Source of the DNA: Lamellibrachia satsuma
Taxonomy: Eukaryota; Annelida; Polychaeta; Sabellida; Siboglinidae
Assembly: GCA_033239005.1 (NCBI GenBank)
Contig: BSQZ01000081.1
Span: forward strand, 57,209 to 121,208
Direction: 5' to 3'
Length of the DNA stretch: 64,000 bases
Under the pieces are notes generated by a model, which saw only the letters and a program-made list of their open reading frames with translations, was not told where the DNA came from and did no database searches. The translations under genes and the position numbers were made by a program. This document shows, one piece after another, positions 15,645 through 54,949 of the stretch (position 1 is its first letter; the number at the start of each line of letters is the position of its first letter).

Positions 15645-15935
15645 GCAGTTGCACAAAAGTCGATGTAATATAAAGTTCGTGTCAGGGTGGTCTGAAGTTA
15701 AATGAAGTCGGTACGTGTAGTGTCGCACATCGGTGTTTCAAGATCGTCAATTCGGGTTTGGTAACAGCAATGCCCTGTCTTGTTCTTTGCTTGTAGGGCT
15801 GCTTATAGGTGTTCAGTGCAACACGAGGGTGTTGTTTGAGACACAACCTTCTCAGACCAAGACGTCTGCACATGACTGCACAGTTGCACGGACCACGCCT
15901 GGTGTGGCAACATGCTCTCGTGGGCTTTCTTGCTG

Positions 15936-26520: not shown

Positions 26521-28924
26521 ACAGTGAGTGCCAGGTTATGTCAACAACACTGACTGTCAACATTGACAACACAGTTGAGCACTCACTGTTAGTGTTACTG
26601 ACAACGTTGACACTGTCCCGTGATAGTGATACCAGGATAGTGCACGCATTGCAACGTGTACATTTAGCCAACACCTAATGTGAATGAAAGTTATAGAACA
26701 ATCGTGGCACCATATAGACTTGTGACGCTATACTTTGTACAGATGTGAGGTTTTAATCACTTTCTAAATGAACATCGCTCCGTTTTCGGCATCACAGGAA
26801 AGCTGATAAAACGGTAAAACACTGCAGACGAATCGAGATGCATCAAGCTCAAATTTACCCGATAGAACGGCTTCATTAATAATAAAATTATATATATAAA
26901 TATTATGTATAACTTATAAAACTACGATTTCTACACATATAAAATGTCTTAATCACATATAAAATAGTAAGTAAATATTTCTGTTGAATTTCAGACGTTT
27001 CGTGTTTATACCTGTACGCGATGCTCGGGGCGTTGACGTTGACATGACGTGACATGTCTCGTGTCGACGTCACTAAGAAGTGGCGTATCATTGTTTGCAT
27101 TTAGAGTGTCAACGACATGCGAAGTTTTACTCTAACCGACAGTAACGTAATTACTACAACTAAACTGGAACAGTAAGTATCATGTGGCGATGCTGCAATG
27201 AGTATGTATGTATTTTACTCTCGCTAAGTACGAATCCAAAAGCCCATTCGCAAAGTAGGTCACGTCGCTATTTATATCCGACAACGTCGACTCGACGCGT
27301 CGTTTAATGACATACAATGCTAGCATTACAGCAAACTGACTTTGCAGCAGCATGATTCGATGTTGTCATTCTTTGCGCATGTTATAATATGACAGTTCAT
27401 TGCAACTTCAACAAACTCATGCTCAGTTATCAACAATATTTATGTATAATTAATTACACGTTTTGATTATGCCGTGTCAGTGATGTCAAATTGACACTGA
27501 CAATATGGCGGCGTGTAGCAATCTTACCTGTCGGTCGGGTGTGTAGCTGTATATTACAAATAACCACAAAAACACTCATCTAAATGCCAAAATGTAGTTT
27601 GCAATAATTTAGTCAGTCAGTACGTGAATCAATTCATGAGTACTTTATTTCAAACTCCCCATACACGAATAACTGTCTATAATAGACCTACACTAAGTTT
27701 AAGATACATGTGCCGCCGGTTAAGTTAAAGAATTAGGAGATTATCCTGCTGGTGCTGGATATGAAATAAAGGAAGGATTGCAGGAATTTGCACTACACCG
27801 GTATAGTAGAAATTACAGTACGGTTTGAAACCTTCAAGTTTAAAAAGAATAAAAGCAGGAGATATGACAACATAGGCAAATAAGAGGGAGATCTTCTTCC
27901 CAATGGCAATGCAGGAGGCTTCGCATATCTCGGCACAACTGGAATTACAGGTGTATTGTAAATGCAGATACTATTTATGGCATATGACCTGTCTCTTTCT
28001 GTTCGATAATCTTTCCTATAAAATGTAGTATTTCACAATTAAAATGCAGTCAGCAGTTGACCCATCTTAAATGAACAGACTTGGCCCTGTACAGATCATC
28101 TTTTTACATTCAGTCACTAAATGATATGCCAGATAATCTGATTGTTCCAGCTGGCAAGTACAAAATGAGAGATATGCTGTGCAGTAGCATATTAACACTA
28201 TATCTTCCACTACAAAATAATAATATACACTGGCATACAAAAATATTTAATTGTTTAAGTTCTATACTTGAGGCTTGATAGCACACTTGAATTAATGTCA
28301 TTCACACAATTGTAACCTTGCAAAATGCGTATTCTCATTTCATTTCTCGGTACATTTGCAACAAAGTTGAAAATATCTTGACATCCAAATTTACTAAGTC
28401 ACCAACTGTTGTTGAGAATTGATTACACATTTGTTTTTTATTTTGTTTTTGCAACAAATATGCATTAATATAATTATTTATTCATGTTACCGTTAATTAT
28501 ATATTACCAGATTGCAAAGATAGCACCTGCCACACCTGGCCATACGCTAAACATGGCGAAACTGTTGTCCGTCATTGCTTACATATTTTGCTCTTTGATT
28601 GCTTAGATCAGTATTTATTTTATTATATTTTAGGCAAATTTATATAATTTTTAGCAAACATTCTAACTAAAACAATCATTCAAGTTTGATTTGAAGTTGA
28701 ATATTCTGAAGAAAAGAAGTCATAGTCAAAATTCAAAACTTTAAAGTGACAATAATAATAATTTTAAAGTGATAATAATAATAATAAAACGATAATAATA
28801 ATAGTTGATTGTCAGATGTACTTTTTGACAGTGCTAGAAATCTTGCTCTACCAGTGCAGCATGCAGCAGTCTGTCGCTTGTTATCATAAAATATTGGTAA
28901 ATACAATGTTTTGTCTGTTTTCAG
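26521..28924. other. Intergenic region between the divergent zinc-finger and constant-exon genes
   Basis: It contains a CpG-richer segment at about 27000-27320 and ACAATATGGCGGCG near 27501, which resembles a YY1-type core promoter element (AAnATGGCGGC). Both flanking genes have acceptors just upstream of their first coding exons (28924 plus, 23059 minus), so non-coding first exons are expected, probably within or near this stretch. No coding sequence seen. Confidence 0.4.
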
Positions 28925-29858
28925 CTTCGATAAGTGATTTGTGAAGAGAACAATCAAGACGATGAAGCCAGACTTTCAACGCATCCAGAGTCTCCTGCGT
29001 GAGGCAGTAACCATGCTGTGTAAGAACAGTCTGCCATACAAGAGCGAACTGTGTGTCGAAGGCCTTCTAGGCATCACACTAGACAGAGAAGACATCTTCC
29101 TGGTGAACATCAAAGAGATCCTGAAGTCGCATGAGTTCATCACATCAGTGGATGACAGTGATGACAGTAAACTAGTCATAGGAGAGAGGTCCTTGAGTCC
29201 AGTGAATTCTCAGGAGGAACCAGACAATGAAGACTCTAGCGTTGACTGTTCCACTGTGTCCACCCGTGCTGTCGTCCCAATATTCAAGCCGCCCAATAAA
29301 GTGCAGCGTTCCCACAAGAGGGCAGTTTCAAACAGTAGTGAACTTTCACGCCATTGGTTTGCGTCAGTGGATCAGCAGACGTCCGGGGACTCCCGTCTCA
29401 GTGAGTGGGAGGAGGGGGTCCATACACTGCCACACACAACTCCCCCCACACAACACCCCCCACACAACAAGCGGCGCCACCTAGAATCTAGTCATCAGTT
29501 TAACTCGCATGAGACAGCCATTGATGTTGATAGTCTGTCAGTGATGGAAGTCAAGAAAGAAGCACTGGATGAGAACGTACCTTCAGCATCAATGACAAAC
29601 TACCGTCTTCAACACACGGGTGACAATCTGAGCAACTTGAACGAACTCACAAACTTTGCTGCTGTCCACATGAGTCAGGGGGAGACAGAGGCCAAGCACG
29701 TACTGCCTGTGTCGCTGCCATCTATAGCGGGACTCACTAGCTCCTCCTGGCACATGGGGGCTGGTGACATCTTATCAACCTCCATGCCGTCTTTACCAAA
29801 CTTGTCGTCTGACATGGTTTCCGCTGGATTGCCGTCTAGTCACTTCAATAACTCAGTG
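28925..29858 (+). CDS. Constant N-terminal exon of a multi-C-terminus locus
   Basis: The exon follows tctgttttcag at 28924; the first ATG is at 28962 and the exon ends CAGTG/gtatgt at 29858, giving 299 codons and phase 0. Residues 1-55 carry ...LLREAVTMLCKNSLPY...CVEGLLGITLD...IFLVNIKE, the same domain as the first exon of the divergent zinc-finger gene. The rest is Ser/Pro/Asp-rich and looks disordered, with a His/Pro-rich part (TPPTQHPPHN) in the middle. The donor is in phase 0 and so is every downstream acceptor found (32373, 35242, 37919, 41987), so it can join any of them in frame. I do not know a named domain for this N-terminus; a self-association or cofactor role is a guess by analogy with BTB-containing loci. 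Confidence 0.75.
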
Positions 29859-32372
29859 GTATGTGTACATTTGTTACGTACTTATTAGTGGCATTGCATG
29901 CTAAGTCTAACCAAAACAACACTAACTCTTCACTATTCTTAGTTTTAAGCGACTAACCCTTTTTGTTCATTCCAGCTGAAATAGTGTGTCATTGTTTCAC
30001 AAAGTTGTTGTCATTCTTTAAAGGTGGCTTGTGTGTATAATCTTCCTCTTAACTGTTTTAAATATGAAGCCAGAAATACAACTTGATATGTACAATATGC
30101 CCTCTGTATATTTTTTTATATGTGTGTCCATATATGTATTTGTTTCAATGGAATTTTGTAGTTTGTTGACATTTTGGCTTTGAATTCCATTATGTGCATA
30201 TTGATTTTGGTACATAATATGTTAATTATATGATACATTCCAACTGTCAATCAAACTAGTGGCAAGTGATAGTCAAATTAAATAGTTTGGATGGCATTCT
30301 GTGGTTTGAACCCACCCAGGACATCCTTGGGCAAGGGACAATCCATTGAGTAATGGTTCCACTAACCTACACATGTACACAGAAGATATTGTGGATTGTT
30401 TGACAAGTTTTCTATCTCTCAAACTATTTGGCCCACCAAGTTCAAATTTCATAATTTATTTGATTGACAAACAGTTGTTTTTGTCACAAGGAGTCCGAGT
30501 GCAGGCAACACACAGACCTGTCTATAACAAGACCCATCTGGCATTACAATTTACACATTTAAGAGTATCTAACAAACAGTGGCAAATCCATGGATTGTTA
30601 AATGAAATTATAATATTATTATAATTTTGTAGAGCATATGGAGAAAATCAGTAGATTTAATATTTGAATTGTTGCAGCATATATATTTCTAGTGATTGTA
30701 ATGAACAGTTGCTGACCATTTGCATAACAACACCTGTTTTTAAGCTGAATATGCTAATATTTATAATTAATGATCAACCTAGAGATTGTTTTAATGCATA
30801 ACAGTTACGTCTAATTCATGCAAGAGTTAAACTATTTTAAGAGCTCTTAATGTGTTGTGAACATAGAACAAATGTTCAGCATGTTTACTCAAACTTCAAA
30901 AGAAACACTAAAATAACTGCTTGTGGGAAAACTAATATTGTGCTCTCACACCAGCGCTACATACAGACTACCAATCCGATGAACTAATATTGTGCTCTCA
31001 CACCAGCGCTACATACAGACTACTAATCCAATGAACTAATATTGTGCTCTCACACCAGCGCTACATACAGACTACCAATCCAATGAACTAATATTGTGCT
31101 CTCACACCAGCTCTGCATACAGACTACAAATCCGATGAACTAGTTTACATGTTTTTGTGATCTTTCTCATCACTGAGACCCAAACAGAGGATGGGTGACT
31201 TTCTCACATTCCCCGTATAATTGTGTAGGGACTGTAGCCCACAGAACTATGCTGTAGCCATAGAAAGCAGGTGTCAGAATGAATTTATATTCACAAGTTT
31301 GATGTCTGTCAAATCTGCATCCATTCCACAAAGAATTAAATAAGATGTTCACTTCATGTAAATCATTTTCCAAATAGTATAATATTAATGATTAACTCGT
31401 TTCTTTATTGAGAAGTGTATACATCTTATTGTGTTGGGAATGCCATGTTATTGGTCATATGCAGTTACCATTAGTTGTAAAGTCAACATTAACAAATACT
31501 ATTATAAAGGAAACCTCCTCCAGTTTAACATTCGCCTTATCTTGGTACAAGGATTAACATTAGTCCTTGCTTTTGCAGAGACCCGGCACTTCGTTAGATT
31601 GATGGGCTGAGTGTGTCCTGGACGGGAAAGAATTTTGATATTCATACCAATCCAAATTCTTGCCCTTCCATGACAGACTCAACCCATCAATATGAAGGGG
31701 AGCCGACGGGGTTCTGCATTAGTCCTTGCTTGGTAAACAATAAGTATCTGTCTGTATTACACTGAGCATTTCCAATTAACCAATGGCCTTTCATTGGGAA
31801 TTTTCAAATATTTATTTTCAAATAGGGGATATTTATTTTCAAATTGGGAACTTTCAAATATTTATTATAACAATAGTGCTGAAAGATGTTCGTTTTTCAA
31901 GAAGTATCCGGAGTCGTTTTTCCTAACAAACGCGTAAGACTGCTTGACTTTAATCAAGGCAGCGTTGATTCGTAGATGTGAGTGAGATCGCAAGTGAAGT
32001 GAGGCGTGAATGGATGCAGGTATGTCAATCTGATGCCGCTCTCTCCAAGCTACAGTTACAATAGCAAAGTACAAAGACAGTGCTAAAATCACCCATCCTC
32101 ATAAAAGGACATTAAATATCATACGTTCTGTTCTGCATTATTTGACGTATGTCTTGTCTACATAGATTAGTTTTGCTCTGAAGGCCATTGCCATCAATAA
32201 CGGACACTGCCATCAATAACGGACACTGCCATCAATAACGGACACTGCTGCTAAATGCACAACGCGCTCATTACATTGTGACACTACACATTTTTTTGCG
32301 GTCTCCAATTTAACACATATTTAAAGTTGAAGGACTGTCTTCATATTACTATTATGACCCTGTTTGTTGCAG

Positions 32373-33383
32373 CAACAAGACCCAACGATCCAGTGGCTGT
32401 CCGTGCCCAGCAGTAACTCCAACGAGTCAACGGTGTCGCGAGGCTGGGACAATGACACAGTGACGACAGTGGATAACAGTGAGACAATGGACAACCCCGA
32501 AGCTGTTGCTGCCTGGGCCGTGTCCACCCTTAGACAGTGGGCAAAGGATGCGAACATCGACTCGGAGAAACTGGGCGACGTTGACCAGCTGGAACTTCTC
32601 ACGGCTGGCCAACTGACGACCTTGCTTTCAAAGTTCATCGTCGAGGTCAGACAGCCAGACGGCGCCACCTACACCCCAAGCAAACTCTTTCTGCTCATCG
32701 CCGGGGTCCAGTCGTACCTGACGCTGAGGCGCGGAGACGAAGGCGTGCTGCTGAGTCCGGAGCCGTTCAGCGTCGTACGTCGTCTCGTCGACTCTCAGGT
32801 GCGACCGGCCTTCACTGCCACCCTGCGACCGCGGCGGCCCGGTCCGGCGTCGCTGACCCCGGATCAGGAGGACCTGCTGTGGCGATGTGGGGCCTTGGGC
32901 GACTACAGCGGCACCGTACTGCTGCACACACTCGTCTACCTCAACTCGCGTAACTTTCTCATCGGTTGCGGCCATCACCACCGGCGACTGCGCTACGCCA
33001 ACCCACAGATCACACTCCACGAGCCGACCACGGGCCCCGCCTACCTGCAGTACACGGCCGACGGACAGGGCGCCGGCCGCACCAAGGTCGTTTACGCCGA
33101 CCCGGCCTGTCCCAGTCGCTGTCACGTCAACATCTACAGGAAGTACGTCGAGAAGTGTCCTCACGAGGGTCGCGATCCTCTTGCTTTCTACGTGGCCCCT
33201 AAGCGTGTACGCGACGCTATCGTCTGGTTCAGTCTGGCGCCGGTCGGCCACAATGGACTGCAGGTGATCGTGCCCGACCTGTTTAAGCGCGCCCAATGTG
33301 AGGAGGCGGTCATGGCGGCCGGAATGAAACTCTGCCCGAACACATCGCAGTCGCCAAGTACGGCGTCTATGACGGACTCATAG
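32373..33383 (+). CDS. Alternative 3' exon 1: DUF3504 (Crypton recombinase-derived) domain
   Basis: The exon begins after tttgttgcag, phase 0, and codes 336 residues to a TAG stop. The DUF3504 signature runs from WAVSTLRQWAKD, through LLSKFIVEVRQPDGATYTPS and GVQSYL, to WRCGALGDYSG and WFSLAPVGHNGLQVIVPDL, in the same order as in KIAA1958, QRICH1 and ZMYM proteins. That family descends from the tyrosine recombinase of Crypton transposons and is generally not catalytic; I see no full R-H-x-x-R...Y set here. The exon is GC-rich compared with the flanking introns. Joined to 28962-29858 it gives a 635-residue protein. An AATAAA at 33697-33702 follows 314 bases after the stop. Confidence 0.85.
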   Translation, partial: QQDPTIQWLSVPSSNSNESTVSRGWDNDTVTTVDNSETMDNPEAVAAWAVSTLRQWAKDANIDSEKLGDVDQLELLTAGQLTTLLSKFIVEVRQPDGATYTPSKLFLLIAGVQSYLTLRRGDEGVLLSPEPFSVVRRLVDSQVRPAFTATLRPRRPGPASLTPDQEDLLWRCGALGDYSGTVLLHTLVYLNSRNFLIGCGHHHRRLRYANPQITLHEPTTGPAYLQYTADGQGAGRTKVVYADPACPSRCHVNIYRKYVEKCPHEGRDPLAFYVAPKRVRDAIVWFSLAPVGHNGLQVIVPDLFKRAQCEEAVMAAGMKLCPNTSQSPSTASMTDS

Positions 33384-33696
33384 CAACAGTAATGATGGTC
33401 GTTGTCTGAGTTTCTTTTTCCTTGTCTTGTATAGAATACTTGCTAACACTCATAAGCAACCAAACGGTCAGGATTGTGTGCAGCGTCTCTTTTACTTACT
33501 TGAATTTCTGTAACTAATTTGTTTAACAAGAGCAAAGTAGTGGTTGTACTTGGCATATCATGAAAGTACTGTCTGTTAGTCGATAAGCATTTTGAATTTA
33601 CTTTATATAAAGTTATACATGGACAATTGTATTGTATCATACGTCAACCCAAACATGTTTCCTGCTGTCATATTTTACAATGTACTGTATTTACAT

Positions 33697-33702
33697 AATA
33701 AA
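33697..33702 (+). terminator. Poly(A) signal for the DUF3504 terminal exon
   Basis: Canonical AATAAA downstream of the stop at 33383; it supports this exon being a 3' terminal exon. Confidence 0.55.
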
Positions 33703-33799
33703 CAGGATATTTCCTCTATCAAACATAATATAGAATTATGAATGTGATTATACATTTGTTGTTGCTCAGAAGTCCGGGGTGAGACTGACATCGACATCG

Positions 33800-34680
33800 G
33801 TCGTCTATTTTTTCCCTTCCGTCACAGATCCCGTTTCACTGCCGTCTCCACCACCCTTCTCCACTCTCCGCCCCCATCTCTTTCCCCCCCCCACCCCACA
33901 CACACACTTCCACAAAATCTCGTCATACAATCCTCCCATCTCAGTCTTGGTCTTCTTCTGTTTCTTTACTTCATGTCTTATCTCTAAATCTTTATCGTGC
34001 TGCCCGACCCAAAGCACCCTCGTCTTCTCCAGACTTGCTTTCAGTCCATGTCTGCAAAGATTTCCTTCCACTCCACCAACCGTTCTTGAAGGTCTGCCTC
34101 ACTGTCCGCTGCTGCCGCCAGGTCGTCTGTCCGCTGCTGCCGCCAGGTCGTCTGCGTATAGCAACTTGCAAAGAATGTTCGTACTGATCTTCCTGCTGAT
34201 CACTTCCACTACTGTGACGAACAACATAACAATCTCAGGCCGACATTCACCCTGAATTCCTCCGATATTCCCGGCAGGCCGACGTTCACCCTGAATTCCT
34301 CCGATATTCCCGGCAGGCCGACGTTCACCCTGAATTCCTCCGATATTCCCGACAGGCCGACGTTCACCCTGAATTCCACCGATATTCCCGGCAGGCCGAC
34401 ATTCACCCTGAATTCCTCCGATATTCCCGGCAGGCCTACGTTCACCCTGAATTCCTCCGATATTCCCGGCAGGCCGACGTTCACCCTGAATTCCACCGAT
34501 ATTCCCGGCAGGCCGACGTTCACCTTGAATTCCACCGATATTCCCGGCAGGCCGACGTTCACCTTGAATTCCCCCGATATTCTCGGTTCGCACACTACTC
34601 CGTCTCTCACGGAACCGTATCATTCTAATTTCATTTAATACTATTCCTTGTAATAAACGACCATATATTTTATAATTTGA
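33800..34680 (-). mobile_element. LINE reverse-transcriptase fragment with an internal minisatellite
   Basis: The minus strand codes VVEVISRKISTNILCKLLYA followed by DDLAAAAD and, further on, RHGLKASLEKTRVLWVG, an RT catalytic YADD block and the following thumb-like region. Upstream of it (34236-34590) the sequence has expanded into 39-bp tandem copies. Family not determined; it differs from the other LINEs in the window. Confidence 0.7.
34236..34590. repeat. 39-bp minisatellite, about 9 copies, inside a LINE RT fragment
   Basis: The unit is GGCAGGCCGACGTTCACCCT plus GAATTCCTCCGATATTCCC. As 39 is a multiple of three, two minus-strand frames stay open (GNIGGIQGERRPA and EFRVNVGLPGISE repeats). 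It adjoins the RT block directly. Confidence 0.95.
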
Positions 34681-35241
34681 CATATATTCCTCCTAATTAG
34701 TGCACTCTACTGACCTAATGTGTAATAATTGTATTTACATTCCTCCTAATAAGCGCTCCTACTGACCAAATATGTTCCCCGCATTGTTTTAGAATTTAAT
34801 AGGCGGAGGCGTTTATGGGAATTTTTCTGCCATGGGCCACGTGGGCGCATGAATACATGGTTATTTTTGTCAGAATTGACGGGCATCGCACGTCGGGGCG
34901 TTTTAAAAGAGCTGGAAGTATGTGGTTTTGACAAAGCTTGATCAGCATGTCAATGAGATAATGGCACTTGCTGTAAAAAAATTTAAGAATTTTTGATGGT
35001 TGCGTTTTCTTATAATCAGACAAAACGTTAACATGGCCACCAATGCAAATCGCTACTGTGATCTGACTCCTAACGTAAAATCTCCATTTACGTATATGGA
35101 ATAATGATATCCCCTTGACGGCGATAGTGGTGCTAGCGACGGTCGACACTGGTGGCCTGAGACAAGAGCAACGACTGCCGATCGCTCCGGGGCAGCGGCC
35201 GCGAGCGAGTCGTACTCATGCAGTGTTTTCTCTTGTCGTAG

Positions 35242-36135
35242 GTCACCAGTGAGCGCGACTCGGCCGCGGCGAGACCGCCCCAGCCGCCGTCGACGCCGGA
35301 GCCGGCCGCCCACCTCGCCGCCGCCGCCATCATCCTCGCCACGCCAGGCCCCTTCCAGAGCGTGCGCGCGCTCCACCGCAAGCTACAGCGGCGCGTGCGC
35401 AGCAGCTCGCAGCTGATGTACGTGGTCGAGGGTCTTGTGCGAGACGGCCTCGCCAGCCTCGTGCAGGTTGTCGTTCGGCCGGCCCGTCGCAGCAAGGCAG
35501 TCTTCTACAAGGCGCTGCCGCCGCCGTCCGCCGACGACGAGGAGACGCAGACAGCCTTCACACAGCGGCTCGCCGGCTACGGCATCACGCCCGATGTCTA
35601 CGTTGGTCAGCTGCGGCGTCAGGACCCGCAGATGGACGCCTTCACACACGCCGCTCTGCTCCGGGAACACCCTGACCCAGAGCGACTCGTGCACTTCTAT
35701 CGTGAATATGCGCAAAACCAAATTGAAAGTGGAGCTGTCTTGAAACCCGAGCACCAGCAGCAACTCAATGAATCTGTCATGGCGGCGCGTACCGAAAATA
35801 AAAAGGAAACTGTTCCAGAACTTGAACATCCGCCGCTATTCCATAGATTCGACAAAGACGCCCGAACCGAAAGTGAGACTGCTCTCGATCGTGTGTCCCA
35901 GCAACGGCTTTCCACACCTGCGTTACCAGCGCAGAACGAGGCGGAGACGTTTTCGGAGCTCCACCACCTAGAACGTTTGTATGCGTCTAGTGTAGAGGCG
36001 CGAACAGAAACAGAAAGTGAAACATTTCCGGGACACACATTTTCGGGCGCACCACACAATCCTGCAGAACACGAAACACCAGCCATCGTCCAGCAGGTGG
36101 ACAAAAACGTGTTGTCAATGCCACATTCATATTGA
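35242..36135 (+). CDS. Alternative 3' exon 2: module copy A (divergent)
   Basis: The acceptor is ttgtcgtag at 35241, phase 0; 297 residues to the TGA at 36133. An Ala/Pro-rich start leads into AIILATPGPFQSVRALHRKL, ...LMYVVEGLVRDGL..., and KAVFYKALPPPSADDEETQT, AGYGITPDVYVGQLRRQDP. This lines up with modules B and C (LCR..., ER.KVFYKCPP, the GV...Y..nFyR.P block and a C-terminal HP/NP), but A is the least conserved: both Cys of LCR/KCPP are gone. The tail (about 160 residues) is Glu/Thr-rich with repeated ARTE.E(S)E units. AATAAA at 36588 and 36663 follows. The fold and function are unknown. Confidence 0.65.
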   Translation, partial: VTSERDSAAARPPQPPSTPEPAAHLAAAAIILATPGPFQSVRALHRKLQRRVRSSSQLMYVVEGLVRDGLASLVQVVVRPARRSKAVFYKALPPPSADDEETQTAFTQRLAGYGITPDVYVGQLRRQDPQMDAFTHAALLREHPDPERLVHFYREYAQNQIESGAVLKPEHQQQLNESVMAARTENKKETVPELEHPPLFHRFDKDARTESETALDRVSQQRLSTPALPAQNEAETFSELHHLERLYASSVEARTETESETFPGHTFSGAPHNPAEHETPAIVQQVDKNVLSMPHSY

Positions 36136-36587
36136 TTTATATATCTGAACGTGGGAATACTTCCTGTTGATCTCGATGTCGTTTTTAGCTTCGTGCGCAT
36201 GTCCATTTTAACACAACGCCAAACAGTGATTGGATTCTGACAGTCGCGTATAGCCTTGATATACCGGTTGTTTCGCTGTTGTGGACCTTAAGTTCATATG
36301 TCTTCGCCATTGCTTTCCACGATTAGTCGCATGACAGTTGCGAGCCGTCTGTTAATCCAGTGGCGTGTACTGCACATGTTTACCATAACATTGTTCTATT
36401 TGGAAAGTGGTTTCAGACAATGTCGATTTTATAACCGACATTGATTATAGTTTTAGCCGCCATACTGGTGTTGTTTGTATTTGCACATGTGCGTTACCGT
36501 TTCTCCGTAAACCTGGTGGTGCGGATCTGTAATTGGCGGTGTACATTCCGGTCATGAGCTTATGGCTGCAAGACTAGGATTTGCTTT

Positions 36588-36668
36588 AATAAATGTGGAT
36601 CTACTTGTAAAACGGAGTTTCTGAGTGTGAATGCGTGCGCGTATGTGAAAATCATAAGGTATAATAAA
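36588..36668 (+). terminator. Two poly(A) signals after alternative 3' exon 2
   Basis: AATAAA at 36588-36593 and 36663-36668, 450-530 bases after the stop. A terminal exon would need such a signal. Confidence 0.45.
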
Positions 36669-37918
36669 ACAATATGAGTGATACTTGAGTGTTCGTTGCG
36701 GTTCGCTGTCCAACAGTTTATGTCCTGAAAATATCGGTGGAAGCAAAACCACCTTTACTATTACGCCCTAATGGCGGTGTAGTGCAGTGCTGTGATCACC
36801 GTGCGTCGGAATCCATCGATTATTTAAGACTGATCCCCAGCTCTCGTATATCTCGACTTTCCTGTTTGCCAGAGTTAATAACCTTTTCGTGAAGAATACT
36901 GTTATGTCAGCGATGTGAATACAGTTTGTACTATAACTATCTTTAATTGAAAGCGAACCGAAACAAAACTATTGACATAACGAATATATAGATCACATAC
37001 ACGTCCAGTGGTGCTGGTGGAGTCGTACACATTATAGTGTTAGTCGTTGTTTAAATTAGCATATAGTTTGTGTTTACCAGACAAACAGGCACGCGCGGTT
37101 TTGTATGATATGATAACTAACAACACAGTTGTTCGGACAACTTGTAGTACTACTCGGCCAACCGGCACGACAACGCACAGTCAAAGTCCTTGTAATAGTC
37201 AGGGTGGATATAGTGGTTGGAGATTTTAGAGTTTAGGGATAAACTGATGAAATGACCTTAACAAGATTGCCACCCCAAGCAACACACGCCAGATGACACG
37301 TGGGCGAGGAAGCCGTCTATGCGTAACCCGCCATAATGGTATATTTGCCATTTTTTTTAAACATATGCTGGTAGCATTTACACAGTCAGTAGATCATTCG
37401 TTCCATTCATTGATCGTCCTTTGTGATAATTAACACTTCCACGTGGCCTTCTCTTGATCTCCTTGTTTCTAGTGTTGTTCAACCACACTCGTTTATTAAC
37501 ACTCGTTTCATTAATAAGTTTGCATAATGAGATTAGCTGCACTCTTCTTTATTCTATCTAACTATGTCCTTCTTACGATATAGCCTCCAAATGTCTGTAC
37601 AGTATTCTAACCGAAGTCTAACTATTGCTTTATATTTTAGAAGAATCAATAATTCGAAGCCGCAGTCCCATACTGCTCTTAGACTTTCATGTATTTCACG
37701 TATTTTTATGAATCTACGTAGAACAGTATCTTCCATTTTCATATTTTACACGCCTGTTCCGTGTCCGGTGTAGAATTGTATTAATAATGATATCTAGGCC
37801 TCACTTGGCAGATTGACGGATGTTAGTGCAAATGTAAAAAAAATTCTAAAAATGTATTGATGCAACAATAACCACTGCAAGTAAAACGCCTCAAAACGGT
37901 TGATCTTCTTCGTTGCAG
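36669..37918. other. Intergenic or intronic DNA between alternative 3' exons 2 and 3
   Basis: No coding sequence supported; the short ORFs at 36689, 37047 and 37554-37773 show no family features. 37545-37745 (minus strand) codes LEYCTDIWRLYRKKDIVR in one frame, which resembles the LEYCIQAWRPYRKKDI block of the CR1-like LINE, so a decayed antisense LINE scrap is likely there. Confidence 0.5.
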
Positions 37919-40900
37919 AACGTCGGGTGTCACCAGGACGCCGCGTCGCCTGGGAGTGACGTTCCGCTTGATCCCGACCTGTTGAACAAGATCCAGTCGG
38001 CCGTGCTGAAGGACGAGGGCTGCTTCATCACCTCGCGCATGCTCTGTAGACGCTATTCGGCGCTCTTCAAGGTGCATCACGTGGTCCAGGCCATGCAGGC
38101 GATGGTGCTGCCACCGGACGACGAGCGACACATCGGCGTCTTTAAGTTCATCAACGAACGCACCAAGGTAAACACATGTGAAGGCAGGTAGAGAGAAACG
38201 ACGGGTGCATGGGTGCTCACTGTTCTATGGTCTGGTTGACAACATGTGGGGATAGCGGGGTAATATTCGATTCTGAACGTAAAATTATTCAATAATATTA
38301 CGTTCAGAATCGAATAAACATTTATAATAGGTACGTTTGCGTTTGTACGTCAATTTGCACCAACAATACCCAGGTGGTGTATGCATGTACATCATATTAC
38401 CCCGCTATCCCCAACAATAATGAAACTTTTTACGTAATTCATGTCAGTGTCAGATGTTATTTTGTCCCGAGTAAACCGACCCGGGGAGTGTCAGTATTCT
38501 ATAATGGTATATTCACCCTCTCTATGAGAATGTGACTCCACCCACCTGTTTTTTATTAACCGTGTGTTTTCTTCATAATTAAGTTTATTGATCACGTCCA
38601 CTATATATCATAGGTAATCTTTGTTTTGATTTCAACTTGATAATAGTAGAATACTGCATTTTTAAATGAAGGTTACCTGGCGGTTCATTTCCCCATGGCA
38701 TAGTATGTTGACCCAAGTCATTTCCACATGGCACCGTATATTGCCCCGAGTCATTATCCCCATGGTATAGTATATTGCCCCGAGTCATTATCCACATGGT
38801 ATAGTATATTGCCCCGAGTCATTATCCCCATGGTATAGTATATTGCCCCGAGTCATTATCCCCATGGTATAGTATATTGCCCTGGGTTATGTTGTTGAAA
38901 TTCAACCTACCAAAATAACGAAAAGAAACACGTTATCATAAATGTTATTTCTTAAAGGTTGTTTGAAATCCGTTAGACCCCAAAAGCCCAAAAAGGCACA
39001 ACAACTTTGGGGTTCCCGTGCAGATATTTAAAATATCTGACATAGTAACAGCTACTCCACCTGCAACATTAGCAAAATACTGTACTCGGATCATAATTAA
39101 TCATAACACGATATTTATCGACTATTCAAATATAAAACTAGCAGCAATATTGCAGCTTGATATGTTCATATTATATAAACCATAATATGTCAAAGTGGCA
39201 TAAAAAAATTTTCAACATTTATTATTTTTATTAAGTACAATCACATTTTGACAATATTCAATATTCGACCCACAAGGAATAATACAATTTTAGTGAAACA
39301 TGGCCAAAATGTTCGTTTGTTATTTATCTCTGTAAAAAGGGAAAACAAAGTTGGGGAAAATTGTACAAAGTACAAAATTGTGAAATATCTGACTTTGTAA
39401 TAGCTACGTCAGCAGCAAAATTAGCAAAACTGTTATCAGAAGCCAATTTTTATCGAAAAGGAGCAATGTCATTTAAGTAAAACTTGGCCGAAGTGTTAAT
39501 TTATTCTTCTTCTCTATATACATAGAACATTAATGAAGTGCCTGTAAAAATCAGAGGTTGCTATCTTACAATCACACAAGTTCCGAACACAATTTTATGT
39601 AGCGAATTTATAACACGCTATCGTCCGGTGTACGTTAAATTTATCCTGGTTTTTGTTATAAATTAACGTTCTTTTACAAAAAACGTACCATTTATGTTTA
39701 TTAAAAACATGTATAGGTTATGTGCATTATTGGCTACCATGCGCACACCGATGCGCAGTTAGCTTAATTTTATGGTATTCGGACACCTTAAAGATCATAT
39801 GCAAAGGTCGAATACATTTGTTTTCACTCGTTCTCGATAGAACTGTATCCCCATATTCGTATTCAGTCATGAAATTGTAAAAGGTTACATTAATCTAGTC
39901 ATAAAACGAGGGATATTCCCGAAGGCACCTTCCGAAAGTATATAGCCAGTGTACTCCATGCACACTCATCCCAACGTAGACTATAGCCAAAATCGTACCA
40001 CAGTTAGAATTAGAAACCAGTTTGTGGATTTTGCCGGTAGATGTCAGGCCGCGTGACATAATTTTGGCCAAACAAACCAACTTCGCCTACGCCGGTTCAT
40101 AGGCACTTAACTTTTAGCAAGATTTAGATCACGTAATGACGAGCGACGGTGATTCTGACGGTGCAACTGACATAAACTTATCGGTTCAAGTCATTCCGTA
40201 TTATTAGTCAACAACGCGGTCACAGTCACAAAAACGAAGTTACAGTCGTCGAGTCTAGCCTAGGCCCTAGCCCTAGCCAAGGCTTGTAAGTTCAACCAGT
40301 GGCCTACTTTGTCTTTGCGTTACTTGGTGGTTTGATTAAGACTATTGGAACTCGTGCGGAAATATGTGGACGCTTTATGATTTTTCTGCCGAAATATCTT
40401 GATATATACAATTTTTAACAAATGTGGCTTTCTAACTTTTCAGTAGAGCTGTCTCGCCTTTGCATTCACTTGTCCTTTGTGATTTTGTCGTAGCACAGGC
40501 TGCACAGTGCACAAAGTGCCTCTCGGTCTACGCTAGCTATTATTTAAAATCTATATAATGTTGCAGTGTTTTATATGGTGTTTCAAATAATGAAACTGGT
40601 GTCACGCCCAAATTCATTGTTTTTTGCCCCATTGCAACATATAAACTTTTAACGTACGTAGATGTTCTGCGTTGCTATGGAATGACACTTTGTTGATGTT
40701 CGTTTGGCCAGACTGACGTCCCACGCTGACTCCGCATGGACATCGTCGAGCAAAATGTCACATCGCTTGGGGCTTTTGTACCACTAATATGATTAGCTTT
40801 TATTGAAGAGTAGCCAATAACAGTATTTGTTAATACATTCCAAACCACTAATACAACTGTTTGTTATCATATACCAGGATTTCTGGAATATTTGCATATA

Positions 40901-41757
40901 ATCTTTAATTCACAAATCATAAAAAAATTAAATTGGTGGGTATATTACTCCTTCATCAGACATTGTTAGGGATGACTTGTTACATCACCTTGCAACATGA
41001 AAACTAAATTATTCTAATAATTTTAATGAATTGGGAGGGGGGTCACTGGAAAACCTGCGGTAGAGTGACCCGGGGGTCGATTTACTATATAGTATTTGGA
41101 CCCCCGGGTCACATTACCCACGAGTCAAAATACCACAATTAAAATTATGACATGTTGGCATGTTTGTGTTTCTCATTACAGTTTAATATTATGACACTTA
41201 AGTATCAACGCCTGAACAAATATATACCTCGCCAAGTTGCACTGTTGTTCAGTATTGTTTGACAATAACCTCGAGATGCTGTGGTGCAGTGTTTGTAAAG
41301 ACCAAGGTCATTACCTGGAGGCTTTACATGTTGGTCAAGTGTTGGTCAAGTGTTGGTCAAGTGTGCAGCCAACGTAGCTTTTGTTGTGATTGTTGTGAAA
41401 TGTCCACTCGTTCGTCGCCAGGTGTTCTACAAGTGTCCGCCTTGCGCTATCAAGCCGGCCGCCCTCGCAGCGTTCGGCGTCACACCGGGGCAGTACCGTC
41501 GCAACTTCTACCGTCTACCGCGCAACAAGAGCATGAAAGCCGACAACTGGGCCGTGTTCGTCGAGCATATCCTCCGCTGTAACCCGTACGGCCCCGTCAA
41601 CATGCCCGACTTCCTCTCGGTCGGCTCCCCGGGCATGTGTTCACCGGCGGCTCCTCCGGTGCAGGAGCCAGAAGTTGCGAGGACGCCGGCGACACAGACA
41701 GTCTTACAGGCGACGATGTCAACGAAGACGGCCGGCAGTCAGAAGGTGGACAAATAG
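37919..41757 (+). CDS. Alternative 3' exons 3a/3b: module copy B
   Basis: 3a is 37919-38167 (acceptor cgttgcag, donor ACCAAG/gtaaac, 83 codons, phase 0 both ends). 3b is 41422-41757 (acceptor gtcgccag, 111 codons, TAG stop). Joined they read ...KDEGCFITSRMLCRRYSA... INERTK/VFYKCPPCAIKPAALAA FGVTPGQYRRNFYRL...NWAVFVEHILRCNPYGP. The exon border falls exactly at ERTK/VFYK; the paralogous module C has SERVKVFYK uninterrupted, which validates the junction. AATAAA occurs at 41780 and 41857. With the constant exon the protein would be 493 residues. Domain unrecognised; conserved Cys (GCF, LCR, KCPP) might bind metal or be structural. Confidence 0.7.
38248..38412. repeat. Nested foldback (MITE-like), 165 bp
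   Basis: The outer arms GGGGATAGCGGGGTAATAT (from 38248) and its reverse complement (to 38412) enclose an inner hairpin with 18-bp perfect arms at 38265-38282 and 38298-38315 (ATTCGATTCTGAACGTAA) that nearly closes to the loop. No clear target duplication. Confidence 0.75.
38690..38890. repeat. ~34-bp tandem repeat, about 6 copies
   Basis: The unit is near CCCCATGGTATAGTATATTG followed by CCCCGAGTCATTAT; the outer copies are degenerate. It lies in the intron between exons 3a and 3b. Confidence 0.9.
38891..41064. other. Intron DNA between module B exons, no gene seen
   Basis: Mostly AT-rich sequence with tails of simple motifs (CCCTAGCCCTAGCC near 40267). No ORF with recognisable features. 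Confidence 0.5.
41065..41112. repeat. 48-bp cruciform-capable palindrome
   Basis: The arms GTGACCCGGGGGTC (41065-41078) and GACCCCCGGGTCAC (41099-41112) are perfect complements around a 20-bp loop that itself contains TACTATATAGTA. It is in the intron 310 bp before exon 3b. Confidence 0.9.
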
Positions 41758-41986
41758 AAAAATACATTTATACGAAAAAAATAAAATTACTGTCATATAA
41801 CTGCAAACATATTATATAGAGGCTACGCGGCACAGGCCGCATTTATTATATATTTGAATAAAAAGTCTCTAACGAATAATGCAGTGATTACATGCAATAG
41901 AAATGACTAAAAGCGAAGGTGTATACAACATATGAACCATAACGATGGAATTGTATAGTTGACCTTCACCATCCGTCCACTTGCAG

Positions 41987-42781
41987 GGCGAGCTGCTGGA
42001 CACGTACGACGAGTTTGACATCCAGTGCGCCGTGGTCCAGACGGACGGTTGCTTCGCCTCGTCGCGCTGTCTGTGCCGTAAGAACACCTACCGTGTGTTG
42101 AACGTCATCCGCGCCATGACGGCCATGAGTCGGCCCCGCCTCCACCCGCTCTACATCGGCACGTACGTGCGGGTGTCGGAGCGGGTCAAGGTCTTCTACA
42201 AGTGTCCGCCCCACCTTGTGTCGGCCGAGGCATTGAGGCTGTACGGTGTCGACGCAGCGTCCTATACACATTTCTACCGCCGCAACCCTCGCCCTCCCGA
42301 GCGCGCCATGCTCAACTGGACGGGCTACGTGGAGGCCATCGTGCGCAAGTGGCCATTCGACGTCGCCTTCGTTCCCTTCGACTCCTTCCAGCTGCCGGAC
42401 GTTGACGTGTTCCGTCTACGCTCCGTCGTCGGCGTCGATGCCCGGCCCATCGAGGACCCGCTGCTCGGGGCGACAGCCTTCGGTAACTCCGAGACCGGCA
42501 AGTTCGCTGATACTGAAATGTCATTCGACGCGACGGACACCACGGCGGAGACCCTATCTCTGGACACCGCTGACGTCTCGCCGCTGTCCCTCGGATACGA
42601 CCCGGAGACGGTGGCCGGCTCAGACAGGACCTCGCTGCCCGGCTCAGACGCTGGGGCCGCCGACAGGACCTCGCCGCCCTCACAGCAAGCGACGGACGAC
42701 AGCGGGGACCGAAACTCAGGCGCAGGACCGCAAGAACAGCGGATGGAGGAGGGCGGCGAAATATCACAACTACACTGTTGA
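41987..42781 (+). CDS. Alternative 3' exon 4: module copy C
   Basis: The acceptor is ccacttgcag at 41986, phase 0; 264 residues to the TGA at 42779. The module occupies about the first 125 residues: YDEFDIQCAVVQTDGCFASS, RCLCRKNTYRVLNVIRAM, YIGTYVRVSERVKVFYKCPP, LYGVDAASYTHFYRR, NWTGYVEAIVRKWPFD. It is continuous here where module B has an intron, so one of the two changed after duplication. The rest is Asp/Ser/Thr-rich and probably disordered. The exon lies only 230 bp after the stop of module B. No canonical AATAAA was seen soon after the stop. With the constant exon it would make 563 residues. Confidence 0.7.
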   Translation, partial: GELLDTYDEFDIQCAVVQTDGCFASSRCLCRKNTYRVLNVIRAMTAMSRPRLHPLYIGTYVRVSERVKVFYKCPPHLVSAEALRLYGVDAASYTHFYRRNPRPPERAMLNWTGYVEAIVRKWPFDVAFVPFDSFQLPDVDVFRLRSVVGVDARPIEDPLLGATAFGNSETGKFADTEMSFDATDTTAETLSLDTADVSPLSLGYDPETVAGSDRTSLPGSDAGAADRTSPPSQQATDDSGDRNSGAGPQEQRMEEGGEISQLHC

Positions 42782-43330
42782 TGATTTCCCATAGAATGTG
42801 TTTATGCCTGTGAACACCTGATGATATATTGTCTTTCAACGATGGGAACTTCATTTTTAGAGTCGCCCGGTTTGTATATCGTTTTCGATTGACGTAATCA
42901 AAACGCCGAGTTCTGTATCCGCTGTAACGTGCGTCGGTAAAATTATTGTTTCGTTTTGTTGCTTTGCAAGTCTTCAGGTTATATTTTTACAACTTTACGG
43001 AAACTTATTCTGTTTCACAGCAGCATGGAGACGCGAATCATATTGGGGCAGTCATGGGTTCGCTTTTCTTTTTAACGTGTGCGTTGTTACCCGTTATCCC
43101 TATCCCAAGCACACAGCAAGGGGCAAGTTGGACGTTTGGCAGCGACAACTGATCACATAGTTGTGCGGCTTCATTCAGCACTGAAACTGCTTCGACATTA
43201 GTATAATTGTTTTAGTAATCAAAATGTGTAAATAACATATAATTCGCCGAAAATATCAGTTATAATTAAAACGTACAGTTTTATATATGTTGCGTTGTCC
43301 TTTGTCATTATTGCATATAACTACATTGCT
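42782..43330. other. 3' flank of the alternative-exon locus
   Basis: Probable 3' UTR of exon 4, then unique sequence; no further acceptor-plus-module unit was found. Confidence 0.4.
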
Positions 43331-43640
43331 TACTTGGCATCGCCTGGAAGGAGCACACACCAAACAAGGATGCTTTTGAGTGCGCAGACATCCCCAGCAT
43401 GTGGTCCTGCTTAGTCGGTGACGTCTGTGCACGCTTGGCCCATGTTTGCCGCATGGACTACCACGCCTCTCCATCAAACTATCTACACCTGTAGCATCTG
43501 TAAAAGAGGGTGCCACTCAAAGATTGGACTTTTTAGTCAGAACAAATGCTGCGCGAACACTGGTGTCGCCATTATCGTTCGAGATATACGGAAGCCAGTG
43601 ATGATGATATTGCGTAAATGTAACATGGTATGTGGCTCCT
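43331..43640 (+). mobile_element. LINE C-terminal fragment
   Basis: YTCSICKRGCHSKIGLFSQN, followed by KCC, is the zinc-knuckle-like C-terminus common at the end of many invertebrate LINE ORF2 proteins. The preceding sequence has stops and frameshifts. Family not determined. Confidence 0.5.
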
Positions 43641-43779
43641 CAACAAGTACACACTCTCTACAGTGACTCTACTCATTGTAGTGGCTGCGTGACATTGCCG
43701 AAAAAGCGGATTTTCCGCCAATTAACAATGGGGTAGGACACTTAATGCTTTCAAATAATGCTAGAAGATTGAATTAATT

Positions 43780-45410
<1,631 letters not shown>

Positions 45411-45465
45411 GAAATACCTCAGAAGGGCCCGTTACCGGTACACATAATATTACATGAAGCAAATT

Positions 45466-45545
45466 TGGATTCTCGATTAGCCAATGGTGTCCTTGTCCAC
45501 TTGCCATCAGGGTATTTTGTTTTAGATAGCAATCTTGTTACTGCC
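45466..45545 (+). mobile_element. Solo 3' tail of CR1-like LINE upstream of GTPBP3
   Basis: GGATTCTCGATTAGCCAATG, CTTGTCCACTTGCCAT and AGCAATCTTGTTA match the family tail. It ends about 250 bp before the GTPBP3 start codon. Confidence 0.75.
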
Positions 45546-45795
45546 ACGCTGTAGCAAGTACGCTGCAAGTCTAACCTAATAGTAGAAGAACCGAGAAAAC
45601 GAGTCAACGCCTACAAAGTGGCTCCATCTAGCTACCACATAAGGCATCTGGTCAGTTAGTGTTTGGGCACCACCAAGCTTCCACACATGTGAAAATGTAT
45701 CGTAAGAGCAGCGTTCGACATTAACATGCATATTGGTTTCTCTTGTGCGATGCATGGTCATCAGTAAATCGTATTTTTCTACGTTTCTATTCAAC

Positions 45796-48700
45796 ATGGT
45801 GTTTCTACGGAGAATGTACAAGCGAACCCCTTTTATCGCCCAAGCATTCCGTTGTCATCTAGCCGGCAAGTTGACGATGTTACGCAGTTTGCCTTGGCGC
45901 GGGGTCCGTCCAATGTCGAGCGTTGAAAATTGGTTGTCCGCCGGCAGCATCTTTTCATTGTCATCTGGTCACGGGAAATGCGGCGTCGCCGTGATCCGCG
46001 TGTCAGGCCCCAAGGCGAGTATTGCGCTGAAGGAGATCGGCCGATTCGTCCGTCTGCCGGGGCCGAGACAGGCAGTACTCCGCAAGCTGTGGCACCCGCA
46101 CACGTGCCAGCCTATTGACCGCGCCCTCGTCATCTGGTTCCCAGGTGAGAATGTGCCGCAATATTGTTTAGACTGTTATGATTGTTTTATTAATGGAAAA
46201 CTGTTCGCAATTTACTGTTTTAACGCCTCTATTATAATCCCTATGTCTGTGTCTATGATTTTGAAAATGATATTGACTCAGCAAAACGATTTCTATAATA
46301 GCCTATTATCAAAATGTCAGTATTGTACAAATTTACAATTCACTGAAAAAATCAGTAAAGTGGATTATCGTTTATACATTTTAATGTAAGAAGTCTAAAA
46401 ACAAACTTTCAAAAGATTAAAGACTGTATTCAAGAACGTATAATTAATATACAATTTGATTTAGTCATTATAAATCCGAAACGTGAATTGATCCAGATTT
46501 ACTCAATGACTCTGATATAAACAATTATGATGCTTATCATGCCTCCAGAGGAATTATCATAAAGAACCACACAAATGTTGTGGTCAATTTTGGTAGAGAA
46601 CACCAGCGATATGGTTGATACTGTTTGTGAAAAGATGGAAAATATTTTAAGTAATGCTAAATATATTAAAATAATATTTTAAGTGATGCTAAATCTACTA
46701 AAACAATATTTATGTGTGGTGATTTTAACATAGATTTGCTAAAAACATGAGACTTTTGACACTGTTGATAATGATATATTGGCTAAAAAATTACATTTAT
46801 ATGCTGTACGCGGTGTTGCACATAAATGGATACTGAGTTATTTGGAAAATAGGCAACAATTTGTTAATTTTAATAATTGTATCATCAGTGAATAGAATAC
46901 ACTTAAACACTTTTTAAAGTTTACATAATGTACATAATAAACAACTTTGACCAGTCATAAAATAGAACCATGCGGAACACTACAAAATGCATATAGAATT
47001 TTAATAATTGTAACTCAGAAATTCTAAATGTATCTTGATCTGCTATGAATATGCATGTAAAATGCATTGTTGCACTTTAAATTTGGACAGTAATCACACT
47101 TTAAAGCAAGCAAAGAGAAAGCATGTTTACCCTTTTTTCGACAAATTGCAACTAATGATATGTGCTGCATAAAATGTTTTATTGAATAAAATTAATTAAT
47201 TCATGGTCTAATTGTTTACAAATTTAGGGCGGTTTGGAGTGTCAGCATAATAAGAACATTATTTAGAGAACTACTTTTGGGAGTGGTTTGGCATTTGGCA
47301 GCGGCATATTTTCTTTGAATACCCAGTAGATTGACCTTCTGGTTTCTTGGAAAGTTACGTTTGATACACTAATTACCTCTCAAGAAAACTTTCATCATCA
47401 GTCTACCGATGTAGGCTGAAAGAATGGATCAAAATATATTCAGAATGAATATAAAAATTTCTTGAGAGGTAATTACCATATCAGCTTATATATTTGTTAA
47501 ATAATCTAACCCATTGCGGTAGTGTAGGTCCAGCCAGCTTCACAGGGGAAGACAGCTGTGAGTTCCATGTCCACGGAGGCCACGCTGTTGTGTCGGCCAC
47601 TCTACAGGCTCTCGGCTCCATCCCTGGGCTCAGAACTGCCGAACCTGGCGAATTCACCAAGCGGTGAGTAGTTACAAAATATGTTGTTAATCTTGATGAA
47701 ATTGCTTCTGAAACATAGGCACTGTCAATGTGTAATCTTCATGCAGTAATTGCAGCATGGCTGAAAGCTTCCCCGAGAACTCAAATTTGTGTTGAAATGA
47801 ACAAGTCTGCCAGTGTGTGAAGTGTAAAGTGTACTGCTTGAAGAATGTCAACACTTTGTTTCAGTGCCTTTCAGAATGGAAAGCTGGATCTGACGGAGGT
47901 GGAAGGTTTGGCCGACTTGATCCATGCAGAGACAGAGTTCCAACATAGACAGGCTCTGAGGCAGATGGAAGGAGACCTGAAGACACTCTATGGGGATTGG
48001 CGGCAACGACTACTCAAAGTATATATCTGAAGATAAATATATTGTATTCTGTTTGTCTACAGTGGTGTGTTCAGATATTTTAGCCAATTTTAGCCAATTT
48101 TAGCGATTTATATGTTAAAATTTTGACATGTATTGTTTGACATTGGAAAAGCCAATGAGCAAGTCCTAACTAACTCTTTGTCTTTTTTTGTTTATAACTG
48201 TGTGTGAACGAGTGCTTGTCTGTGTGTGGATGAGTGCTGGTCTGTGTGTGGATGAGTGCTTGTCTGTGTGTGGATGAGTGCTTGTCTGTGTGTGTGTGTG
48301 TGTGTGCATGCGTGCGTGTGAATGAGTGCTCATCTGTGTGTGAATGAGTGTGTAAATGAGTGAGTGGGTGGGTGGTTGGTGGGTGCGTGCATGTGTGCAT
48401 GCGTGCATGTGTGCATGCGTAAATTATTATTATTATATATACCTTTGTTCTCTGCTATAGTGCACTGCCAGTCTTGAGGCTTACATTGACTTCAGTGAAA
48501 ACGACAACATAGAAGATGGAATCGTAGAACAAGGTCCACCATCCCTACTCTTTCTACATCTGGGTGGCCTAGATACTCCCACCTAGCTCCTCCCTCCCTA
48601 GTTCCTCCCTCCCTAGCTCCTGCCTCCCTAGCTCCTCTCTTGTCTCAACCCTGGATACTTATCCTCAGGTCTCGATCTCCTATAGTCCTAACTTACATTG

Positions 48701-53585: not shown

Positions 53586-54670
53586 TTATTGTTACACAGA
53601 TGTTAAAATGCCATTCTCACTGGATGATGTGTGCTCAGTGATATTTATACATATTAACTGTTTATGTCCTACATACTGTACATACTAGCATGTGTGATAT
53701 TATAATGTATGTACAATTAAATGAAGTGCAATTTTTAATTGTATGTTTTATTTACAGTATCCCAAGATTAATAATTAATGTTAAAAATTTTAAAGTAACT
53801 ACATCAGTCCATGTAACGATAACTTTGGAATAATATTATTTTGCAATGAGCACCAAGACACAGTAGCCAAGCCAACACAGCATTGACACAGACACTGCAC
53901 TGACACAGACACAGCTGCTCCTGTCTCAAAAACAAATCGCTGACATTACAAAAATTATACACAGTCATAGACATAGATGCATTTAAAATCCCTCCTCAAC
54001 TAATTAGTGACCGTTTTCCCACTCAAATAAAAATCATCATGCAATTTTTTTTTATTTTGCGAACAATTGGTAAGATATTTTTAATAATGATGACAATACG
54101 AGTCTGCCAGGATTCGAACCTGTAATATTCTGATCCCTAGGTCTAGTCTAAATTTCGTTTTTCCGTTACTGCCTTCACCGAAATAGTTTAGTAGGGCAAA
54201 GTTCACTCGGCCTGCTTCCGGAAGTTCATTTTTATGTTCAGGGCAGATGGAATGCTCATTCTTATTCATGATTTGTAATGGTTTTAGTCATTCAGTCAAC
54301 GACGCTACTACATCAGATGTTTTCTGTTATGTGATATATACTCATAAGAAAGCGGTCTTTCTGGATACTGCGAGCATGAGGTAACGAATTTGACAAAGTT
54401 GCCGCCTGGCCTTGGCCTTGGAAATGGAAGGCTTCTCGCCTCTCGGCCCTGGCACAGAAATGTATTTTCAGTGCAGCGCAAATACATGGTAATGTAGTAT
54501 TATTTCTAATTAATTCAGTATTGAAATTACTATGTTGCTACCGTTTCTATTTGATCCGATTGTCTTTAATATTCGCGAATCACTGTGACCCTTGTCTCTG
54601 TCCATTCGCGGACAAACTTTCAGCAGCAGTAGATAGCGACTTGGGTACAATGACAAATATTTTTGGAAGT
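53586..54670. other. GTPBP3 3' flank
   Basis: ATTAAA at 53716-53721 is the nearest weak poly(A) signal. A B-box-like word on the minus strand (GGTTCGAATCC, about 54110-54120) suggests a tRNA-like repeat remnant, without a complete cloverleaf. No coding sequence seen. Confidence 0.4.
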
Positions 54671-54949
54671 AAACATTCTTTAAACTAGAAGTGCAGGGGG
54701 GTTACCTAGAGGTGTCTCAAGCAAAACAAGAGGCCACTAGCACAGATAAACCAATATCAAATCATCCGAAAAACATCTCTGAAAAAGGTTATAGATGCAT
54801 ATGTTTAACGAAGTGGTTCCGTAGCCGAGCATCGGTTCTATGCGCGTTACCGTTAAAGAACCGAGCACCAAATGCGCATGCGCCAGTCCAGGTGTCACGG
54901 GGTCATGGTCGCGCGAGTGTTTCCGCTCTCTCTCTCTCTCTCTCAAAAC

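Follow-up and report, generated by a model that had tools for sequence, protein, structure and literature searches.

A window of 64,000 nucleotides from the siboglinid annelid Lamellibrachia satsuma (GenBank assembly GCA_033239005.1, contig BSQZ01000081.1, positions 57,209 to 121,208 of the forward strand) was analysed, and all coordinates below are positions within it. On its plus strand, between 28925 and 42781, lies a locus that consists of one coding exon with a start codon (exon N) and, downstream of it, four coding units (A, B, C and D), each of which ends at a stop codon of its own. The locus is probably one gene, in which a constant first coding exon is followed by one of four mutually exclusive terminal units.

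Inspection of the sequence places exon N at 28925–29858, where it includes the end of the 5′ untranslated region (UTR) and a coding part (28962–29858) that runs for 299 codons from the ATG at 28962 to a phase-0 end at the donor GTG/GTATGT (the slash marks the exon border). This donor outscores 97.9% of GT sites when scored with a donor matrix. Units A (32373–33383, 336 amino acids (aa)), B (35242–36135, 297 aa) and D (41987–42781, 264 aa) are single exons. Unit C requires a second intron, also in phase 0: its exon 1 (37919–38167, 83 aa) ends at the donor GTAAAC after 38167 and its exon 2 (41422–41757, 111 aa, with the stop) opens behind a CAG before 41422; only 229 nt separate that stop from exon D. 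The four acceptors that could receive exon N are TTGCAG/CAA at 32373, GTCGTAG/GTC at 35242, TTGCAG/AAC at 37919 and TTGCAG/GGC at 41987, all of them in phase 0. A first-pass annotation of this DNA, made from its letters alone, had described a constant exon at 28962–29858 ending in phase 0 and four acceptors opening in the same phase into stop-ended coding sequence, and the sequence confirms both statements: the joined frames N+A, N+B, N+C and N+D are 635, 596, 493 and 563 aa long and contain no internal stop. Four matching acceptors are by themselves weak evidence for a shared exon N, because B, C and D are paralogous; what raises the locus above chance is that its parts are conserved in relatives.

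The first-pass annotation had also pointed to AATAAA downstream of three of the four units. The motif is present after A, B and C (314, 453 and 23 nt past the stop), and downstream of D the first AATAAA lies 1,028 nt past the stop, with an ATTAAA at 484 nt. Since AATAAA occurs within the next 500 nt at 41% of sampled plus-strand positions in the window, its presence after three stops carries no weight, and it was dropped as support for alternative 3′ ends. Of the alternative splicing and polyadenylation that had been proposed, the shared N-terminus and the exclusive terminal exons are supported at the level of sequence; the argument from the polyadenylation signal is not. Tandem arrays occupy parts of the introns of the locus at 34158–34625, 30878–31189 and 38723–38892, with units of 39, 52 and 34 nt, respectively.

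Unit A matches two Pfam families, the QRICH1 domain PF25561 (E 2.4e-9) and, behind it, DUF3504 (PF12012, E 2.1e-24), and the sole solved relative found for it is a QRICH1 chain (9hjt_H, E 1.7e-14). Domestication of a Crypton tyrosine recombinase is reported to have given rise to DUF3504 (PMC3212892). C and D are 39% identical over 121 aa (E 2e-26), and B, a distant copy, shares with them a core here called FYK (single-pair comparisons give E 0.006 against C and 0.023 against D). The module lies in the single exons of B, where it is divergent, and of D, and is split into halves between the two exons of C; its alignment over seven sequences, C among them, has 18 invariant columns. Judged by these alignments, a single unnamed module is present three times, in B, in C and in D, which corrects the earlier description of the tails as DUF3504 and an unnamed module, right as regards DUF3504 in A. 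That description had also called the C-termini DNA-binding-like, for which the module offers no usable fold, Pfam or PDB match. Pfam contained no family matching B or D at E 1, and the seven-sequence alignment, searched up to E 10, found only DUF7427, with one member at E 0.15. No solved structure was found for the module profile at E 10 or for D by sequence at E 1, and the fold model of the D module (mean predicted local distance difference test score, pLDDT, 35.5) is unusable. A winged-helix fold for the D module would be a guess, and binding of DNA or chromatin by the module of B–D is something we infer rather than observe.

Residues 1–59 of exon N form an unnamed N-terminal domain (the N-domain), modelled with a helix at 5–22 and strands at 30–39 and 45–54; pLDDT reaches at least 70 at 41 of the 299 residues of the exon. 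The sole Pfam match of N is CLU_N (E 0.12, under its cut-off). A search of the PDB by sequence gave seven chance matches only (E 0.65–0.72), and comparison of the modelled fold with the PDB gave 89 matches at E 10 or better, none of them at E 0.001. In the model the N-domain is thus a helix followed by a beta-hairpin, and it is likely to serve in protein–protein contact. The linker behind it, predicted with low confidence, is probably disordered and contains the motifs PPxxKRR and, at residue 197, VKKE.

Relatives were sought in a database of proteins predicted from genomes and metagenomes and clustered at 90% identity. A query made of the last 75 residues of N with D, C and B gave 13 matches among the 7,993 candidates sharing most words, which were the ones scored: the window's own protein (P0026), three relatives of D (P0027–P0029, 56–69% identity), three of B (P0030–P0032, 57–61%) and six of N. 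The corresponding query with A gave 11 matches, namely the window's own protein (P0033), four relatives of A (P0034–P0037) and six of N. P0034–P0036 are 59–67% identical to unit A; P0037 matches over 209 residues only and continues in a frame that looks unrelated, as a frameshift in the assembly or the gene would produce. Unit C was outside the length limits of the searches, so that the relatives cover N, A, B and D. Relatives of all four co-occur on contigs of equal size in two other assemblies, at 56–64% identity: P0003 (N), P0036 (A), P0030 (B) and P0028 (D) at 81,393 bp, and P0005 (N), P0035 (A), P0032 (B) and P0029 (D) at 51,948 bp. From the equal sizes of the records we infer that each size stands for one single contig.

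The same relatives bear on the idea that only one or two units are in use and the rest are decayed or non-functional copies. Unit C, whose lengths the searches excluded, is without demonstrated relatives, as such decay would allow. Against this, the relatives of A, B and D retain long open frames at 56–69% identity, and C itself retains both splice sites, phase and frame along with its identity to D, which makes the idea highly improbable.

The borders of homology are also consistent with splicing. In six of six relatives of N a V (as from GTN) stands right after the last homologous residue and is followed by divergence, and in the six relatives of the units that extend beyond the acceptor, P0034–P0036 (A), P0030 and P0031 (B) and P0028 (D), homology begins at or directly after a Q (as from CAG). 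These are protein letters rather than DNA, and they fit a donor and acceptors at the same borders in the relatives.

The first methionine in the units comes at residue 39 (A), 59 (B), 41 (C) and 44 (D). In B and D the identity to relatives before this residue is 46/48 and 47/58 in B, and 35/40 and 38/40 in D, compared with 133/222, 136/212, 121/199 and 146/204 (60–72%) after it. Because their best-conserved residues precede the first methionine, B and D need an upstream coding exon. A scan for start exons (ATG, at least 10 codons and a phase-0 donor score of at least 4, with an arbitrary threshold) found no candidate in either the B–C or the C–D interval. Weak candidates were found between N and A (one), between A and B (one) and between the two exons of C (two with a common donor, and one more). 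The linked conservation in two relatives, the fit of the borders and the upstream start needed by B and D together favour alternative terminal exons.

Exon N belongs to a wider family. Six proteins resemble it at 62–70% identity over 94–100% of its length, and 19 further proteins match its first part only, mostly over about 50 residues (128 in P0008 and 31 in P0025). The alignment of N with these 25 relatives (26 sequences) has 13 invariant columns and includes the stretches GLLGITLD and FLVNI, spaced as GLLGITLDxxxxFLVNI. The plan of the family, also that of exon N, is an N-terminal domain of about 50 residues opening a first coding exon with a phase-0 end, the phase-0 donors having been read in DNA for N and its neighbouring copy N2 only. 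Pfam gave no BTB match at E 1 in N or the 25 aligned relatives. In bacterial or archaeal contigs and in viral contigs the alignment gave 71 and 12 pattern matches, respectively, of which none was confirmed.

A six-frame search of the window with the N-domain pattern found two copies, that in exon N and one on the minus strand at 22840–22893. The second copy lies in N2, the coding portion of a neighbouring gene's first exon (22594–22998, minus strand), and N2 has a phase-0 donor (GTATGT). N2 is a divergent copy, 27% identical to N over 52 aa (E 6e-8) and 40% identical to P0021 over 53 aa. The terminal exon of the neighbouring gene (15936–17621, minus strand) opens at a phase-0 acceptor (TAG/GGC) and encodes C2H2 zinc fingers, with seven stretches matching PF00096. 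The neighbour has a two-part plan like that of the present locus, an N-domain exon in phase with a C2H2 terminal exon. In P0020, from a contig of 1,189 bp, the N-domain and C2H2 fingers stand within one frame, and we read it as a spliced product. At least two cases thus have the N-domain together with C2H2 fingers, and the present locus is a variant in which the tails are different. A long tandem array of 30-nt units, open on both strands, lies at 17900–19110 in the intron that separates N2 from the C2H2 exon.

A motif [VIL]KxE (x not P), which we take to be the SUMO consensus, follows the domain in all 27 sequences (N, N2 and P0001–P0025), compared with 3.4 expected from shuffled linkers. The count was made post hoc, the motif having first been noticed in the alignment, and the sequences are related and do not amount to 27 independent tests; some of the linker stretches counted include read-through intron or finger sequence. 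The set had been gathered by a query with exon N and not by the motif. The motif marks a candidate SUMOylation site in the linker. The pattern P-x(0,3)-K-[RK] is found in 19 of the 27 sequences against 6.9 expected; it reads PPxxKRR, which resembles a nuclear-localisation motif, in N and its six close relatives and is missing from N2.

Segmentation of the window by the observed/expected ratio of CpG (CpG o/e), with parameters of our own choosing, gave five CpG-rich segments, of which three concern the two N-domain genes. The largest (31891–46482, o/e 1.10) starts 482 bp before A and covers A–D with their introns up to the first exon of the next gene; it is not uniform, o/e being 0.46 at 44001–45000. 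Exon N (0.51) and intron 1 (0.43) are CpG-depleted. The neighbouring gene has the same switch: N2 and its first intron are likewise depleted, and a CpG-rich segment at 14500–17633 covers the C2H2 exon and its 3′ flank with an edge 12 bp from the start of that exon. The intron of N2 consists in part of a CpG-poor tandem array and LINE-like sequence, and repeats may shape that edge. The third segment (26605–27536, o/e 1.49) lies between the two divergent genes and is a candidate for their shared promoter region. Candidate donors of 5′ UTR exons were noted by eye inside it, GTAAGT at 27172 (plus strand) and GTAAGA at 27528 (minus strand).

Several of these observations, and some others, weigh against a single gene. 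N is present on five long contigs, and its linkage with A, B and D is seen on two of them; on the other three (215,851, 310,108 and 255,931 bp) no match to A, B or D was found, and contigs of 23,276 (D), 36,741 (A), 56,128 (A) and 297,262 bp (B) each have one unit and no match to N. Copies on the three unmatched N contigs may be hidden in the 90% clusters; those of P0035, P0029, P0034 and P0031 have 4, 5, 5 and 3 members. The matches included no protein in which N is followed by A, B, C or D; the range of one search (226–719 aa) allowed all four joined products, and none was among its 11 matches. In unit A the residues before Met39, which precedes the recognised domains, are less conserved (19/31, 22/37 and 20/37) than those after it (195/274, 182/289 and 183/287), and A might for this reason start by itself at Met39. 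Lastly, A–D are not CpG-depleted, which is unexpected for one unit transcribed through to D. In the oyster, gene-body methylation is reported to form a plateau along gene bodies (PMC4378273), and a CpG switch inside a gene is unexpected for that reason. One possibility is that the majority of germline transcripts end early; another is that this family keeps its terminal exons free of methylation, the neighbouring gene being alike; or the switch could speak against a single gene.

Taken furthest, these points would make A–D two to four separate genes with promoters and unrecognised short first coding exons of their own, only A or none of them using exon N. The sharp change in CpG between exon N with intron 1 and A–D, the few weak candidate start exons (N–A, A–B and within C), the units unmatched on three of five long N contigs and the possible start of A at Met39 would all suit this. 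The intervals B–C and C–D, however, have no candidate start exon at the threshold used, and the units and N are found on contigs of equal size in two other assemblies. The CpG switch need not mean separate genes, because the neighbouring N-domain gene shows it at a single C2H2 terminal exon. On balance we regard separate genes as distinctly unlikely.

If the locus is one gene with alternative terminal exons, a promoter upstream of 28925 would give a pre-mRNA spanning the locus, the donor at 29858 would be spliced in cis to the acceptor of a single unit (32373, 35242, 37919 or 41987), and the 3′ end would be one belonging to the chosen unit. The terminal unit would set the target, A via DUF3504 and B–D via the copies of the unnamed module. 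The isoforms would then bring one regulatory head to differing targets, presumably in transcription, as Lola and Mod(mdg4) do. The units might alternatively be independent primary transcripts that are trans-spliced to exon N. The layout resembles that of mod(mdg4), whose variable regions are made as independent primary transcripts; the same paper terms intergenic trans-splicing rare in insects (PMC4667647). A–D are CpG-rich, as promoter-bearing DNA might be; all four units share the strand of N and lie within 13 kb, a layout for which cis-splicing suffices, and trans-splicing is very unlikely here.

The single gene with alternative terminal exons that we prefer has the make-up of the lola and mod(mdg4) type, in which several units with their own stops and compatible acceptors follow a constant N-terminal coding region. 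As in Drosophila lola, where cis- and trans-splicing attaches common N-terminal exons to a large number of unique C-terminal ones (PMC1947980), one head would serve several tails; lola differs in having at least 20 isoforms where four units are present here. It differs also in its BTB head and mostly zinc-finger tails, N being without BTB and A–D without zinc fingers. Drosophila mod(mdg4) has a shared 5′ exon and variable 3′ units that are mostly of one domain type, FLYWCH (PMC4667647), just as B–D here have one module. It is unlike the present locus in its trans-splicing, in having some units on the opposite strand and in its BTB head. The present locus has every unit on a single strand and an unnamed head domain. 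C2H2 or FLYWCH tails were not found, A matching only DUF3504 and QRICH1, and B and D nothing, in Pfam at E 1. By analogy the locus may work like lola and mod(mdg4), of which it is not a member, having neither BTB nor zinc-finger or FLYWCH tails.

A precedent for unit A is vertebrate KIAA1958, described as having two isoforms with different DUF3504 domains from different intronless exons, the splicing not having been confirmed experimentally (PMC3212892). Unit A, too, is a DUF3504 exon without an intron. KIAA1958 has DUF3504 tails only, unlike the combination here of one DUF3504 with three copies of another module. QRICH1, which is grouped with WOC and ZMYM2–4, resembles unit A in having DUF3504 with PF25561, the domain named after it, in front. 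Pfam at E 1 shows no MYM zinc finger, the defining feature of WOC and ZMYM, in either N or A. Eight introns are counted in QRICH1, five of them matching ZMYM (PMC3212892); unit A is a single exon. No locus of such make-up was found among the open-licence papers listed by searches aimed at it, as far as their titles and the starts of their abstracts go. The first-pass annotation had held that, to its knowledge, none with these domains was described, and KIAA1958 qualifies this as a precedent for alternative DUF3504 exons.

If RNA confirms the splicing, the one-head strategy of lola and mod(mdg4) extends to unrelated parts, a domesticated recombinase domain among them. BTB, ZAD and KRAB are heads of a comparable kind, and the unnamed N-domain family with its candidate SUMO switch could be their counterpart in a different group of animals. 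The border between constant and variable parts nearly coincides with the CpG border, and DNA methylation may possibly be linked to the choice of terminal exon. One may go further and picture a family defined by the N-domain and an invariant SUMO site, in which the C2H2 tail known from other members was swapped at this locus for either a recombinase-derived tail or one of three copies of a new DNA-binding module, and the choice of tail is epigenetic, with the border between a germline-methylated constant and an unmethylated variable part falling where the two meet; we put this forward as a conjecture, conceivable but rather unlikely.

The remaining CpG-rich segments of the window lie at 12153–12536 and 53403–56839. 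No RNA family was found within the 64-kb window at the gathering score. Downstream of D, a plus-strand frame at 45706–46389 has a TrmE N-terminal domain (PF10396, E 4.5e-10), and we take it to be, probably, the first exon of a GTPBP3-like gene. Coding fragments resembling LINE retrotransposons were recognised by eye at 20839–21432, 43760–45260 and 56705–58718.

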